This document shows, piece by piece, positions 41,157-48,841 of a stretch of DNA of 64,000 bases. The notes below the pieces were generated by a model that had not been told where the DNA came from, did no database searches, and worked only from the letters and a program-made list of their open reading frames with translations. A program made the position numbers and the translations under genes. How positions within the stretch are numbered: position 1 is the first letter of the stretch; every line of letters starts with the position of its first letter. The DNA is taken from positions 33,434-97,433 of the forward strand of contig SIAM01000002.1 in the NCBI GenBank assembly GCA_009691785.1. Direction: 5' to 3'. This stretch comes from Phycisphaerales bacterium (GTDB lineage: Bacteria > Planctomycetota > Phycisphaerae > Phycisphaerales > SM1A02).

Positions 41157-41353
41157 TTTGTTTGCTTTTCCGCTGAAAAATGATTGCGCCGTGGTGGGCG
41201 CGGGTGACGCTACGCACTGCGGGCGGCGGATGTTGCGAATGCGGTGCAACATCAATTCCACATGCGCTGTTTGCGCGGTCCATTGGGAACGTGCGTGGCA
41301 AATTTGCATGCGCGCACACAGCTGAAATAATTGAACGCACTAAACTTATTCAC

Positions 41354-42088
41354 ATGCCCACCGATTTCGCGCTTGTAACTTTCATTGTGCTTCTTGGCGT
41401 GGTCGCGGCGCTATACGCCAGCGTTGGCCACGGCGGCGCATCGGGCTATCTGGCCATAATGGCGCTGTTTGGCGTGAGCGCCGTGTTCATGCGTCCCTGT
41501 GCGCTGGTGCTCAACATTTTAGTGTCGGCGCTAGCCTCATTCACTTTTGTGAAAGCTGGACAATTTCGTTGGCGCTTGCTTTGGCCATTCATTGTCACTT
41601 CCATTCCCTTCGCATTTTGGGGCGGCACGCTGGCAATTGATGAGATCGCGTTTAAAATTTTGGTGGCCGCAACATTGCTGATTGCGGCGGTCAGACTATT
41701 CATGCCGCAAAGAAATGTTTCGATCAAGCCGCTTGTAATGTTTGACGCGCTGGCGTGTGGAGCGGCGATTGGATTTCTTTCCGGTTTGGTTGGTGTAGGC
41801 GGAGGAATTTTCCTAACGCCCCTGCTCATTTTGTGCGCGTGGGCCACGCCACGCGAAGCCGCGGCGGTGTCCGCCCCATTTATAGTATTCAATTCAATCG
41901 CGGCTTTAAGCGGCTTAATGATTCAAAGCATCAGTTTTCCAAATTGGTTGTGGTGGGCATGCGCCGTGGCAATTGTTGGCGGTTGGTTCGGCGCTAAATG
42001 GAGCACTGGCAGCGCATCTCAAAATGGATTGCGCATCATACTTGGGTGCGTATTGCTTATCGCGGCAGTGAAATTTGTCGCTGTCTAG
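41354..42088 (+). CDS. TauE/SafE-family membrane permease
   Basis: From ATG 41354 the protein is 244 residues with about eight hydrophobic helices in two halves. The opening YASVGHGGASGYLAIMALFG and the middle GFLSGLVGVGGGIFLTPLL are the paired Gly-rich motifs of the TauE/SafE (DUF81) family, which exports sulfite, sulfoacetate or related anions. The ORF track extends to 41180, but residues before this ATG are not family-like. The stop codon lies in the first copy of the 12-bp tandem repeat. Confidence 0.9.
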   Translation: MPTDFALVTFIVLLGVVAALYASVGHGGASGYLAIMALFGVSAVFMRPCALVLNILVSALASFTFVKAGQFRWRLLWPFIVTSIPFAFWGGTLAIDEIAFKILVAATLLIAAVRLFMPQRNVSIKPLVMFDALACGAAIGFLSGLVGVGGGIFLTPLLILCAWATPREAAAVSAPFIVFNSIAALSGLMIQSISFPNWLWWACAVAIVGGWFGAKWSTGSASQNGLRIILGCVLLIAAVKFVAV

Positions 42089-42138
42089 GGCTTGGGCTAG
42101 GGCTTGGGCTAGGGCTTGGGCTAGGGCTTGGGCTTGGG
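42085..42138. repeat. 12-bp tandem repeat (CTAGGGCTTGGG x4, plus half copy)
   Basis: Four perfect 12-bp units occupy 42085-42132, with a six-base partial unit after. The first unit contains the TAG stop of the TauE/SafE gene and the last contains the stop of the convergent cytochrome gene. Each unit carries a TAG on both strands in some frame, so it can supply stops to read-through from either side. Confidence 0.95.
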
Positions 42139-43269
42139 CGGATTCACAACTTTTGCGCCTTGCCGAATCCAAGCTTCAATCAATGCAATTTGATCCGCCG
42201 CAAGCCGAGCGCCCTTAGGCGGCATGTGACCTTTGGAAGACATCGGTTTTTTAATCGCTGTCACCATGATGCTTGATTGCGGTTTACCAACATAAATTAT
42301 TGGAAAGGTTTTACTTTTAGCCAGCGGCTCTTTCACGATCAGTTCCGCCACGTGATCAAATGCCACGCCACCTTTAGCTACGCCTTTGCCATGGCAGTCC
42401 CAACAACGGGCTTCAAGTATTGGAAGAATATTTTTGTTGTACTCAAGATCATTTGGAATTTCCGCTGGAGTTGCCGCGGGCAGCGCGGGTGGCGCGGTTG
42501 GCGTTGTCGCAGGAGGCGGTGTTTGTGTCGCAGACATTGCAAAAACAACACTTATTCTCAGCACATCATTGATGAACAAAGCCGCATTCAATTTTGGTGC
42601 TTCTGTTGCTGGCGCGGTTGGCGCGTTTGGCGCGGTTGGCGCGGTTGGCGCGGTTGGCGCGGTTGGCGCGGTTGGCGCGGTTGGCGCGGTTGGCGCGGTT
42701 GGCGCGGTTGGCGCGGTTGGCGCGGTTGGCGCGGTTGGCGCGGTTGGCGTTGCGCTTTTACTTTCACTCAGTGATTTCCAACTCGCTGACAACGCTGCCG
42801 AAAGTGGCGTGGTGACGTGTCCCTCGCCCCAAACCATGTCACCACCAAAATGCGCGGTAATTCCAATACCAATTGCAACAAGAAGCGAAGTGATGCGTGA
42901 AATTTTCAACAGTCCCGGCCAAGAGTCACTGCGCACAAGCGAAGTCATAAATGCAAGAGCAACCAATCCCGCTGAACTTCCTATGCCAAACCAGCGGTGC
43001 AAAGACAATTCATTGCTGTCAGCTGTGGTGTTTCCTAAGAACCACCCGCTTGCGGCCACAAACACACTGGCCAGCGCCGCGATCCAAATGCAGTGAAATG
43101 CGAAATCGCCAAATCCCTCATGCCGACAAATCCAATGCCACACCATCGCTAAAGCCGCGACAACCGCAAGAGCAATTGGAAAATGCACTATAAGCGGATG
43201 CACAGCTGCCAGCACATGAAGCCATGCGTCAAGAAGTGAAGGAGATCCGGGGGCGTCTGCTGAATTCAT
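42121..43269 (-). CDS. DUF2231-like membrane protein fused to a planctomycete-type cytochrome c domain
   Basis: The 382-residue protein has four N-terminal helices (DUF2231-like: VHPLIVHFPIALAVVAALAM), then a linker of about 45 residues of repeating Thr-Ala-Pro, a second hydrophobic stretch (residues near ALFINDVLRISVVFAMSA), a Pro-rich spacer and a C-terminal haem domain with CWDCH and the probable axial Met in KGHMPPKGARLAADQ. This fits a membrane-anchored cytochrome exposed to the periplasm. The hydrophobic stretch after the linker resembles a signal peptide, which hints at fusion of two genes. It is convergent with TauE/SafE. Confidence 0.85.
   Translation of the reverse strand: MNSADAPGSPSLLDAWLHVLAAVHPLIVHFPIALAVVAALAMVWHWICRHEGFGDFAFHCIWIAALASVFVAASGWFLGNTTADSNELSLHRWFGIGSSAGLVALAFMTSLVRSDSWPGLLKISRITSLLVAIGIGITAHFGGDMVWGEGHVTTPLSAALSASWKSLSESKSATPTAPTAPTAPTAPTAPTAPTAPTAPTAPTAPTAPTAPTAPNAPTAPATEAPKLNAALFINDVLRISVVFAMSATQTPPPATTPTAPPALPAATPAEIPNDLEYNKNILPILEARCWDCHGKGVAKGGVAFDHVAELIVKEPLAKSKTFPIIYVGKPQSSIMVTAIKKPMSSKGHMPPKGARLAADQIALIEAWIRQGAKVVNPPKPKP
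42611..42745. repeat. 9-bp tandem repeat (GGCGCGGTT x15) encoding the Thr-Ala-Pro linker
   Basis: Fifteen copies of a 9-bp unit run without interruption; only the second differs (GGCGCGTTT). On the minus strand it reads as Thr-Ala-Pro repeats within the cytochrome gene. Because the unit length is a multiple of three and contains no stop, several other frames are open across it, which explains the antisense ORFs in the track. Confidence 0.96.
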
Positions 43270-43395
43270 TATTTGTTCATGCTATGAGCCAATTCAATTT
43301 GCACCTCTGGAAATTTCGCACGTAAACAGCAGCAAGAACGAGCCACCACCACGCCAAATTGCCTGTTTCAAAATACGAATCAGTTTGTGTGAAAC

Positions 43396-43571
43396 GTAAA
43401 AATAGAAAAGGCGTGAGTCGCTTAAGTTTCCTTAAGCGCCCACGCCCTTTTTTGCAAAATTATCCCAAACAAGATGGGGCTTTTCACACCCATCCACGGC
43501 AACACCAACCCGGACAACGGCTTACGCCGGATCAATTATAAAATATAAGAAAGTTTGGGAACACTCTTACT
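43396..43571 (-). ncRNA. Candidate structured small RNA or leader on the minus strand
   Basis: Read on the minus strand, a TATAAT (43540-43535) precedes a run of hairpins. The first is CGGC-GTAA-GCCG (43529-43518) with a GNRA loop, then GATGGG/CCCATC (43494-43473) with a ten-base loop, then a long terminator-like stem. A second promoter candidate further upstream is TTGACA (43605-43600), 16 bases, CACAAT. The RNA would be about 130-175 nt. It could be an independent small RNA or an attenuated leader of the cytochrome gene, whose ATG lies 126 bases beyond. It matches no RNA family that I recognise. Confidence 0.5.
43400..43454 (-). terminator. Strong rho-independent terminator hairpin
   Basis: On the minus strand GGCGTG pairs with CACGCC and the inner CGCTTAAG pairs with CTTAAGCG, closed by a GAAA tetraloop, with a small internal loop between. 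TTTTCTATTTTT follows. On the plus strand the stem is also followed by TTTTTT, so it may act in both directions. It ends the structured-RNA candidate. Confidence 0.8.
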
Positions 43572-43646
43572 GTTCGTATTGTGATTGGATTTGATGCATT
43601 GTCAACAAAATAATTTAAATTAAATTGGATAAACTAACAGTCATCG

Positions 43647-44897
43647 ATGCCAAAGTCCGAGAATATCATTTGTGTTTGGCAAAAATGCGTCCTGCACGCC
43701 GATATGGATGCTTTTTTTGCCAGCGTTGAGCAACTTGATGATCCAACGCTTCGGGGCCGGCCGATTTTAGTGGGTGGCGAAGGCGGTCGCGGCGTGGTTG
43801 CCGCCGCCAGCTATGAGGCGCGAAAGTTTGGTTGCCATAGCGCCATGCCCATGGCCTTGGCTCTGGCCAAATGCCCGCATGCTGCCGTGCGCGCTCCGCG
43901 CTTTGATCGCTACAGCGAAATCAGTCAGCAATTTATGAATATCTTGCGTGACCAATCGCCACTGGTTGAACCCATCAGCGTGGACGAGGCTTTTGTTGAT
44001 GTCACTGGTTCGCAATTGCTACTGGGCAGTGGACCAACCATCGCGCGAGCAATCCGCGCGCGGGTGTATGGGGAATTAAAATTAACCGTGAGCGTTGGCG
44101 TGGCTACTTCTAAATTTGTGGCAAAGATTGCCAGCGATTTGCACAAGCCAAACGGATTGACCATAATTTCATCCGAGCAAACGCGTGACATATTGGCGCC
44201 GCTTGCAATTTCTAACATGTGGGGCGTGGGTCCAAAGACGCTTCCAAAATTCATCAACGCGGGCATTCATACATTTGGTGATTTACAAAATCTAAGCGAA
44301 GAACAAGCGCGCGCGCGGTTGGGTGAATCTGGCGCGCAGTGGCGGCAGTTTGCGCTTGGCATTGATGAGCGCGAAGTCATCACGGAACACGACGCAAAGA
44401 GTGTGGGACAAGAGGAAACATTCGACCGCAATATTGGTGATATGACATTGCTGCGCGCCGTTCTTCAAGAGCAATGCGATCGCGTTGCGCTGCGGTTGCG
44501 CGCTTCCGCGGGCTATGCAAAATGCGTCACGCTGAAAGTGCGATTGGCAAATTTCGACACGTTTTCTAGGCAACAAACGCTCAATCCATGCACCGATTCC
44601 ACCAAGACAATTTGGCAAGCGGCGGATGCGTTGCTTGCGGCGTGGCGCATGGAAAGCGCGTTGCCACTGCGCCTGATTGGCGTCAGCGTGGAGCGCATCG
44701 ATCGCATGCGCGCCGAAGTGCAGCCAGAACTTTTTCCAGATGTCGCCGCGGAGGTTCAACGCAAGCTTGACTCCATTACCGACGCTGTGGCGCGCAAGTA
44801 TGGGCCAGAAGCACTGCACCGTGGAGTGGCGCGCGCGGACAGCCGTCGCAACAAACGTGACGCCACCAATGACGGACCTCGCCCCGAAGCGGGATGA
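43647..44897 (+). CDS. dinB: DNA polymerase IV (Y-family)
   Basis: DinB is an error-prone translesion polymerase. The catalytic motifs are VLHADMDAFFASVEQ and PISVDEAFVDVTG with the metal-binding Asp/Glu residues, and YEARKFGCHSAMPM and SVGVATSKFVAKIASD are also diagnostic. The helix-hairpin-helix NMWGVGPKTLPKFINAGI and the C-terminal little-finger domain are present. The length of 416 residues is typical; no clear C-terminal clamp-binding peptide was identified. No LexA box was recognised upstream. Confidence 0.95.
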   Translation: MPKSENIICVWQKCVLHADMDAFFASVEQLDDPTLRGRPILVGGEGGRGVVAAASYEARKFGCHSAMPMALALAKCPHAAVRAPRFDRYSEISQQFMNILRDQSPLVEPISVDEAFVDVTGSQLLLGSGPTIARAIRARVYGELKLTVSVGVATSKFVAKIASDLHKPNGLTIISSEQTRDILAPLAISNMWGVGPKTLPKFINAGIHTFGDLQNLSEEQARARLGESGAQWRQFALGIDEREVITEHDAKSVGQEETFDRNIGDMTLLRAVLQEQCDRVALRLRASAGYAKCVTLKVRLANFDTFSRQQTLNPCTDSTKTIWQAADALLAAWRMESALPLRLIGVSVERIDRMRAEVQPELFPDVAAEVQRKLDSITDAVARKYGPEALHRGVARADSRRNKRDATNDGPRPEAG

Positions 44898-45826: not shown

Positions 45827-46273
45827 TCAACTTGTGGCTTGACCCAGCCTTAAACCAAACGCTCCCGCCGCAAATCCAAGAACCAACGAAAGACCTAGAT
45901 TAAGCCCACATTGAAGCAAATCGCCGCGCGTGAGTTGCTGCATTAATTCTTGCGCCAGCGAACTGAAGGTGCTCAAGCCGCCCATGCATCCAGAGACAAA
46001 AAATAAATTGAACAATGGATTTTTTTTGTGAAATGGATCAACCACATCCACAAAGTGGCCACGGGAAAGAATTAAATATTTACGACCAACCCACGCGGCG
46101 AAAAAAGTGGCGAGCAAGTTCACAACAAGAACGGCGACCCAAGGATCGGCTTGAAAGATTGGACACACTTGCTCCGCGCCATAGCGAAGCATTGTTCCCA
46201 TGGTGCCGCCGCCAAAAACCACCGCAAGCATGAGCCAGATCGAAGGAAGAGTTGGTGGCGATTTGGAAGTCAT
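45827..46273 (-). CDS. crcB: Fluoride channel CrcB, second copy
   Basis: CrcB (Fluc) exports fluoride as a dual-topology dimer. The 148-residue protein from ATG 46273 has four helices and family motifs FGGGTMGTMLRYGAEQ, VNLLATFFAAWVGR and GCMGGLSTFSSLAQEL. The track start 46297 lies inside the upstream crcB; the ATG at 46273 forms an ATGA overlap with its stop and is preferred. Paired crcB genes usually encode the two halves of a heterodimer in opposite orientation. Confidence 0.9.
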   Translation of the reverse strand: MTSKSPPTLPSIWLMLAVVFGGGTMGTMLRYGAEQVCPIFQADPWVAVLVVNLLATFFAAWVGRKYLILSRGHFVDVVDPFHKKNPLFNLFFVSGCMGGLSTFSSLAQELMQQLTRGDLLQCGLNLGLSLVLGFAAGAFGLRLGQATS

Positions 46274-46653
46274 GCGCTGATCCTTTGGCCAAGCCATGCC
46301 AACGCCACCCCGCCAACAATACTGAGCGTGATGAACAACACGGCGCCGCGCGCGCGCTTATTTTGCAAGCCTTCCGTGGATTCAATCATGAACGCGCTGA
46401 AGGTTGTGAAGCCGCCAAGGAATCCCGTCAGCAGCACATCAGTGATCAGTTGGGAGTAATCCGCATGCATTTTCAGCAGAAATCCGCTTAAAAATCCAAT
46501 GGCCAGCGAGCCCAGCAAATTGATGCACAGCAATATCTTCCACTGGGGCCAGAGCCGCCCGCGGTCCAGAAAAAAATAAATCAGAAAGCGCGTGGCCGCG
46601 CCTATGCCCCCGCCAAATCCAATCATCAAAGTGGTAACAAACGGCGTTAGCAT
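46270..46653 (-). CDS. crcB: Fluoride channel CrcB, first copy
   Basis: The 127-residue protein has four helices with GFGGGIGAATRFLIYFF, INLLGSLAIGFLSGF and GFLGGFTTFSAFMIES, all CrcB signatures. The track starts with TTG 46674; ATG 46653 gives a more usual N-terminus (MLTPFVTT). It is translationally coupled to the second crcB. The chrA start lies only 25 bases away on the opposite strand, which leaves no room for a fluoride riboswitch upstream. Confidence 0.92.
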   Translation of the reverse strand: MLTPFVTTLMIGFGGGIGAATRFLIYFFLDRGRLWPQWKILLCINLLGSLAIGFLSGFLLKMHADYSQLITDVLLTGFLGGFTTFSAFMIESTEGLQNKRARGAVLFITLSIVGGVALAWLGQRISA

Positions 46654-46678
46654 TTGAAGCGGTGAGTCTACCAATCAC

Positions 46679-47863
46679 ATGAAGTTCAAACGCGTTGGCG
46701 AAATATTTTTCATCTTCCTGCGTCTTGGATGTTTTTCTTTCGGCGGACCAATGGCGCACATTGGATATTTTCAGGAGACACTTGTCACGCGTCGCAAGTG
46801 GATCACGCAATCGCGATTCGCTGACCTTGTCGCACTGTCGCATTTTTTACCTGGACCTTCAAGCAGCCAAGTTGGATATGCAATTGGCGTGGAGCGCGCG
46901 GGCATTGTTGGCGGACTTGCAGCATGGATTGGATTCACCTTGCCCAGCGCTTTGATGATGTACGCCGTGGCCATGACGGTGTTGTATCCAGGCGAACTTT
47001 CAAACGCCGGTTGGTTGCAAGGACTCAAAGCGGCCGCTGTTGCGGTGGTGGCATTGGCGGCAATACAAATGTTTGTCTTGCTTGCGCCAGATTCACGGCA
47101 CAAAATACTTGTAGTAGCCACGGGGTTGCTTAGCTTTTTATTGCGTGACACCATTGCGCAAGCGTGGGTGTTGTTCATTGGCGCGGCGGCTGGCTTGTTC
47201 GCACTGCCGCGCGATGAGCCTGTTGAGTTGGAGTCAGCGCATTCCACCAGCCCAATTTCTAAACGTTTCGCATTGATAGCACTGGCGCTGTTCGCCGCAA
47301 ACTTGTTTGTGACATGGACACCGTGGGCTCTATTTGCGCAGACTGGCTCGCTGGTATTTGGTGGAGGACATGTGGTGCTGCCACTTTTAGAAACACGCTT
47401 TGTGTTCACTGACTTGATTGACGAAAATACATTTCTTGCCGGCTACGGAGTGGCGCAAGCCATTCCTGGACCGCTGTTCACTTTCGCCGCGTTTCTTGGC
47501 GCCACATGCAATCTGCATATCCCGCCAAGCTTTGGAGCGTGTGTGGCAACAGTTGCAATTTTTATTCCAGGATTGCTGCTCATGACCGCGGCGCTTCCAT
47601 TTTGGGACACGCTCAAACACCGCACATGGGCGCGCGGCATGTTGTCTGGCGTGAACGCCGCGGTGGTTGGCTTGTTGTTCGCAGCGCTGATTGGCTCCAT
47701 AGTGCCTGCATTGGTGATCCGTCCGTTTGGGGCCATTGCAGTGGGACCAACAACAATCATGATCTTGATTTATCTGGGGGCGTTCGCCTTGCTGCGGCGC
47801 AAACTTATTCCAGTACCGGCCGTGGTGGTTTTGTGCGCGCTGACGGGCTGGCTGTTGTTGTAA
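46679..47863 (+). CDS. chrA: Chromate transporter ChrA, two-domain form
   Basis: The 394-residue protein has about ten to twelve helices in two homologous halves, as in long-chain CHR transporters. The first half has LRLGCFSFGGPMAHIGYF and LPGPSSSQVGYAIG; the second has GSLVFGGGHVVLPLLE and GVAQAIPGPLFTFAAFLG. ChrA-type proteins export chromate by proton exchange, though many environmental members have other anion roles. It is divergent from the crcB pair. Confidence 0.93.
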   Translation: MKFKRVGEIFFIFLRLGCFSFGGPMAHIGYFQETLVTRRKWITQSRFADLVALSHFLPGPSSSQVGYAIGVERAGIVGGLAAWIGFTLPSALMMYAVAMTVLYPGELSNAGWLQGLKAAAVAVVALAAIQMFVLLAPDSRHKILVVATGLLSFLLRDTIAQAWVLFIGAAAGLFALPRDEPVELESAHSTSPISKRFALIALALFAANLFVTWTPWALFAQTGSLVFGGGHVVLPLLETRFVFTDLIDENTFLAGYGVAQAIPGPLFTFAAFLGATCNLHIPPSFGACVATVAIFIPGLLLMTAALPFWDTLKHRTWARGMLSGVNAAVVGLLFAALIGSIVPALVIRPFGAIAVGPTTIMILIYLGAFALLRRKLIPVPAVVVLCALTGWLLL

Positions 47864-47894: not shown

Positions 47895-48776
47895 TCAGCG
47901 CGCGGGCTCAATGTGCGCCGTGGCGGTTCCGCCCAGCGCGGCCTCGATATTATTTTCTATTTCACTGGCCACATTGTGCGCGCTTTTTAAATCCATGTCG
48001 GGGCGAAGTTGCAAATGAAAGTCCACCCAATGGTCGCGCCCGCTGTGGCGCGTGCGAACCTTGTGAAATGAAACAATGCGCGGCAGCGGTCCATCCGCGC
48101 GCGCGTGGTCCTTTAAAATTGTTTCAACCTTTGCCAAGTCCGCAAGGTCCTGCTCATCTAGCAAGTCTCCAAGCGCGCGGCGAATAAGTCGATAGCCAAC
48201 AAACCCCACCCACACGGCCATGATCAAGGCAATGATTGGATCAAGAAACTGTTTGTCCGTCCAACGCACAAGCAAAAGTGAAACCACGGCGGCGCCGCTG
48301 GTCCACGCGTCGGAAATCAAGTGAATTCCGTCCGCGTTCAACGCGCTGCTTTTTGTTTTTCGCCCAACTTGAATCAACCACATTCCAACGCCGCCGTTGG
48401 CCATGATGGTGAACGCAAGAAGCAGCAATCCAAAATCAATTTTTTCAACCGCCGCACTGCCCTCTAATAGTTCCAGCGCGCTGCGCACCATGACCACCAA
48501 CATGGCCACGCTGATCATGCCGCCTTCAATGGCGGAACTTAAAAATTCAGCCTTACCGTGGCCATATGGATGCGTTTGATCGGCGGGACGATTGGCCATC
48601 CACACGCTCCAAATCACCAACGCGCTGGCCGCCACATTCACAACGCTTTCCATGGCGTCACCAAAAACAGCGGTGCTTCCAGTGAGGCGCCACGCCGTAA
48701 GCTTTGTAAGCAAAAGCACCACGGAGGTGATCAGCGCGATGCGCGCGGCGCGGTGCTCTAACTTTGCGGTGCTCAT
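47895..48776 (-). CDS. Cation diffusion facilitator transporter
   Basis: From ATG 48776 the protein is 293 residues with six helices. The metal site is suggested by AVFGDAMESVVN (helix 2) and HLISDAWTSGAAV (helix 5). The C-terminal cytoplasmic domain ends with ARHSGRDHWVDFHLQLRP. CDF proteins export Zn, Fe, Mn or similar ions; the metal is not decided by sequence. The track start 48839 lies too far upstream. It is divergent from the Usp gene by 65 bases. Confidence 0.92.
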   Translation of the reverse strand: MSTAKLEHRAARIALITSVVLLLTKLTAWRLTGSTAVFGDAMESVVNVAASALVIWSVWMANRPADQTHPYGHGKAEFLSSAIEGGMISVAMLVVMVRSALELLEGSAAVEKIDFGLLLLAFTIMANGGVGMWLIQVGRKTKSSALNADGIHLISDAWTSGAAVVSLLLVRWTDKQFLDPIIALIMAVWVGFVGYRLIRRALGDLLDEQDLADLAKVETILKDHARADGPLPRIVSFHKVRTRHSGRDHWVDFHLQLRPDMDLKSAHNVASEIENNIEAALGGTATAHIEPAR

Positions 48777-48841
48777 ATGTGAAATGCTACTCCTACACGG
48801 CGTGCATTGGCGTACTATCTTCATCGGAGATCGCATCAATT

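Follow-up and report, generated by a model that had tools for sequence, protein, structure and literature searches.

A candidate small RNA gene with a conserved terminator hairpin in one genus of freshwater planctomycetes

The minus strand of a gene-to-gene spacer (43270-43646) in the 64,000-nucleotide stretch of planctomycete DNA analyzed here, which we call the window, probably carries an independent small RNA gene with its own promoter and its own terminator. The predicted transcript is about 175 nt long (43397-43571), promoter and terminator are conserved in 14 genomes, and the 180-nt minus strand folds with a z-score of -6.1, none of 200 shuffles folding as well. The gene appears to be previously undescribed and, so far, restricted to one genus of freshwater planctomycetes. 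The RNA is predicted from comparison alone, and its defined ends are open to direct test in lake metatranscriptomes.

Locus, promoter and parts of the predicted RNA

The source contig is 97 kb long and belongs to a draft genome of 2.19 Mb that is 92% complete. The spacer lies between two divergent genes assigned by Pfam. On the minus strand, 42121-43269 encodes a DUF2231 membrane domain with planctomycete cytochrome C (PSCyt1) and lies downstream of the RNA in 14 genomes; on the plus strand, 43647-44897 encodes DNA polymerase IV (dinB, IMS family), a DNA-repair polymerase. Within the cytochrome gene, the length of which varies among relatives, a tandem GGCGCGGTT repeat (42606-42757) gives rise to an Ala-Pro-Thr linker. 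Farther along the window, two adjoining short membrane-protein genes (45827-46674) look like a paired fluoride-channel (CrcB-type) locus and are adjoined by a chromate-transporter-like gene (46679-47863), both being by-eye judgements from the sequences only.

Comparative sequence places the predicted RNA start near 43571 and its end in a T-run at about 43397-43400. Upstream of the start is a predicted sigma-70-type promoter (43578-43605, minus strand) with 10 of 12 consensus matches, consisting of TTGACA (43605-43600), 16 nt, and CACAAT (43583-43578). The form TTGAC[AT]-16 nt-NANNNT recurs with constant spacing in all 14 genomes, and the -10 box has A at position 2 and T at position 6. A first-pass annotation of this DNA had pointed to a TATAAT, but that hexamer (43540-43535) lies inside the RNA and is not conserved. 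The interval that it gave for the RNA, 43396-43571, is a near-exact match to the transcript inferred from the comparative data, and the minus-strand hairpins and the terminator with a GAAA loop and T-run that it described are present in the sequence. Both of its two hairpins exist, but the one with a GTAA loop is not conserved.

Several parts can be recognized along the minus strand. A possible closing helix would join UCCCAAAC (43553-43560), inside the 5' segment GUAAGAGUGUUCCCAAACUUUC, to GUUUGGGA (43463-43470); it folds well in the window sequence, and its partner is kept only partly in relatives. A hairpin of the form GAUGGG-UGUGAAAAGC-CCCAUC, with a conserved GAAAAG-type loop, was delineated at 43473-43494 by hand structural alignment and a shuffle control. 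Next comes GCAAAAAA (43448-43455), which is invariant in 14/14 genomes and immediately precedes the terminator hairpin GGGCGUGGGCGCUUAAG-GAAA-CUUAAGCG(A)CUCACGCCU (43409-43447), defined by alignment of the 14 genomes and by covariation. The U-rich terminator tail TTTCTATTTTTA (43397-43408), seen in the sequence and the alignment, completes the RNA. On the plus strand GCAAAAAA reads TTTTTTGC, possibly a second direction of termination. No conserved open reading frame was found in the RNA; the frames shift between species, and G004 and G011 have none of at least 12 amino acids. A small peptide encoded in the RNA (ATGGGTGAGAAA...) was rejected because its frames are not kept across species.

Conservation, folding and covariation

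Searching the DNA of 150 relatives, we recovered the element from 14 members of the genus, the source genome among them. These are all of the congeneric genomes in which the locus is assembled (14/14) and 14 of the 16 genomes of the genus overall. In the remaining two (G009 and G013) the locus is unassembled and the cytochrome match sits at most 5 bases from a contig edge, so that absence there is uninformative. The carriers are planctomycete metagenome genomes, and many are lake-derived by their isolate names.

Near the 3' end, GCAAAAAAGGGCGTGGGCGCT...GCGACTCACG is invariant in all 14 genomes, forming the terminator hairpin with one bulged A, and the terminator as a whole holds invariant blocks of 21 and 10 nt. 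Two groups can be told apart at the other end of the RNA. In ten closer genomes the 5' segment is GUAAGAGUGUUCCC or very similar to it. In four distant genomes (G001, G004, G007 and G011) the 5' hairpin is unrelated and GGAGUGU comes after it; the 5' half is almost wholly different between the groups. Where dinB is the neighbor in the four distant genomes, its protein is about 58-59% identical to that of the window, yet the blocks of the hairpin stay the same. Conservation covers the terminator hairpin, the hairpin near 43473-43494 and, among the ten closer genomes, the 5' end.

Neither 400 genomes of the order nor about 85,000 species genomes yielded a convincing copy outside the genus. The exact core pattern occurs in 12 of the 400 genomes, all in the same genus, and a reversed control pattern occurs in 0. 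In the one-genome-per-species collection (about 85,000) it occurs in 12 planctomycete records of the group and in scattered others, and the outside-genus matches, among those listed, are coding-like or have no symmetric hairpin with a T-run. The core pattern is also present at L135:2837-2877, on a contig labelled Acidobacteria, probably by chance. R1, a covariance model built on the hairpin, scores 70-84 bits within the genus and no more than 32 bits in the rest of the family. Weak DNA matches in other genera (query about 90-128) and R1 matches of 24-32 bits were taken, as a group, to be chance or ordinary terminators. Rfam 15 contains no family matching the RNA, either at the gathering cut-off or at E-values up to 10, which bears out the earlier remark that it fits no familiar riboswitch consensus; a mir-4850 match scores 23.9 bits where the cut-off is 93, and is a hairpin artifact.

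The terminator stem has a probability of 1.0 in 14/14 genomes, and 97% of cells pair across eight distinct terminator sequences. Three pairs of the upper stem (10 cells) show both-sided changes, with a covariation score that none of 500 shuffles attains, although the shuffles overstate this significance because there are few such changes and the sequences share ancestry. The lower helix and the single bulged A are nearly or fully invariant. Nine terminator pairs show no variation and are thus silent on structure, but such constancy is in itself uncommon in a terminator. In the hairpin at 43473-43494, both-sided changes affect 6 of 10 stem positions (3 of 2,000 shuffles), in a hand alignment that was fitted to the hairpin and is biased towards it. 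Compensatory changes in relatives, which the first-pass annotation had proposed as a check, were thus found in both the upper terminator stem and the upstream hairpin. When the ten closer sequences are folded to a consensus, only the terminator and short hairpins gain support. When the terminator is left out, the 5' domain has a z-score of -3.1 for the window and of 0 to -3.6 across relatives, several of which fold no better there than shuffles.

Relation to the cytochrome gene and to bidirectional termination

The RNA might be an independent transcript or the attenuator of the gene that follows, and both possibilities had been raised at the outset. The two lie on the same strand in 14/14 genomes, with the RNA about 60-150 nt upstream. 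This linkage holds in G001, where the dinB side is replaced and dinB is not the neighbor. Such constancy is the strongest point in favor of a cis-acting leader, either a riboswitch or an attenuator, for the DUF2231-cytochrome gene, in which the 5' domain would sense a signal and set termination versus read-through; a cis element would show the same pattern. In several species the CCC on the 3' side of the upstream hairpin has an alternative partner in a GGG that follows it, comparable to switching RNAs. We nevertheless regard a leader as unlikely. In 13/14 genomes the upstream domain pairs with the 5' arm of the terminator no better than shuffles do, and the terminator is predicted to form in all of them. 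The 5' domain is replaced wholesale between clades, unlike an aptamer, and R1 gave no match ahead of the homologs of the cytochrome gene in other genera.

The cytochrome gene also appears to have a promoter of its own. The spacer between terminator and gene is poorly alignable apart from a TA[GA][ACG]AT box, which lies downstream of the terminator and 6-9 nt before the cytochrome ATG in 14/14 genomes. In the window the box is TAGCAT (43279-43284, minus strand), the predicted -10 box of the gene, 9 nt before the ATG. This spacing fits a predicted leaderless cytochrome transcript. Across the window, 17 TANNNT boxes occur at 5-9 nt before candidate ATG starts, compared with 1-8 in other 5-nt bins; this control is positional, a gene-body control being biased by composition. 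The excess suggests that leaderless transcripts are common in the genome, with 43279-43284, 41176-42085 and 47897-48839 as examples. An independent RNA is favored because the poorly alignable spacer keeps a -10 box for the gene, leaderless boxes appear common and no conserved antiterminator is found. Of the two original possibilities, the independent RNA is strengthened by its own promoter and terminator and by the leaderless box, and the attenuator is weakened. The locus does resemble attenuators and riboswitches in that a structured RNA and its terminator precede a gene on the same strand, but it differs from them in having neither an antiterminator nor a conserved aptamer core, and its downstream gene has its own predicted promoter.

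A further explanation, which we consider somewhat less probable than a leader, is that what is conserved between the divergent genes is a bidirectional terminator or a transcriptional insulator, with the RNA as its by-product. The terminator hairpin is close to symmetric, and on the plus strand its invariant A6 reads as a T6 terminator of textbook form, with a T-run cleaner than the one on the minus strand. Bidirectional termination could account for part of the conservation. Terminators do not need an exact sequence, yet the lower helix, the bulged A and the flanks are invariant here; the minus-strand sigma-70 promoter is conserved at fixed spacing and the upstream hairpin covaries, and both speak against this explanation.

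Proposed role and comparison with known RNAs

For the independent small RNA that we favor, RNA polymerase with the housekeeping sigma factor would start near 43571, make about 175 nt and stop at the intrinsic terminator (43409-43447). The RNA would keep an internal hairpin with the GAAAAG-type loop and a 3' terminator hairpin with its invariant lower helix and bulged A, and it would serve as a trans-acting regulatory RNA. The 5' stretch UUCCCAAACUUUCUU of the ten closer genomes is rich in pyrimidines and could base-pair with the starts of mRNAs, and the invariant 3' hairpin and U tail would stabilize the RNA or bind protein. A trans-acting base-pairing regulator is our best guess for its role, held tentatively and at a little under an even chance. 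No other part is as well conserved as the terminator hairpin, which suggests that this terminator has a second role. It is considerably less likely that this is a genus-specific regulatory RNA with its functional core in the terminator, the bulged-A hairpin being a dedicated protein-binding or dual-strand element, and not in the body.

As a general class, trans-acting intergenic small RNAs are alike in being short and structured, with their own sigma-70 promoter and an intrinsic terminator with a U tail. In contrast to them, the RNA described here has no sequence relative that we found and occurs in one uncultured planctomycete genus only, and conservation peaks in the terminator hairpin, where the bulged A is invariant, something that a plain terminator would not need. 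A limited literature search found no trans-acting small RNA described in planctomycetes. The Rhodopirellula-1 motif is listed for Proteobacteria and Planctomycetes in a table that gives no Rfam number (Weinberg et al. 2010, PMC2864571), whereas the present RNA is found in one genus only; this comparison covers the listed description.

A diverged housekeeping RNA (6S, SRP RNA or tmRNA) missed by Rfam would fit the size, the separate promoter, the genus-wide presence and the lack of an Rfam 6S match in the source genome, but it is highly improbable, as a family-specific 6S model matches elsewhere in the genome and not at this RNA, and the SRP RNA and tmRNA lie on contigs C76 and C35. Identity with 6S RNA was rejected on both Rfam RF00013 (no match) and the family-specific model, and identity with SRP RNA or tmRNA on the presence of both on other contigs; RNase P RNA gave no Rfam match at the locus. 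The RNA shares with 6S RNA (RF00013) its size class and a housekeeping-type promoter but not the rod with a central bubble, and the genus has its 6S candidate elsewhere.

The search for 6S RNA led to a side finding. 6S RNA has been reported absent in Pirellula and Rhodopirellula (PMC5673643). Within the family studied here, RF00013 has sub-cut-off matches in 13 of 45 genera, reaching 42.1 bits, and a family 6S model (R2) was built from six such relatives. R2 finds nothing convincing within the window. In the source genome it finds a single strong 6S candidate at G000:C27:6485-6619 (L161), and one is present in 15 of the 16 genomes of the genus. The family candidates (L141-L156) align over the full Rfam 6S model and covary as a set, in an alignment that was fitted to the model. 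Judging from these predicted sequences, a 6S RNA that scores below the Rfam cut-off is present in this planctomycete family.
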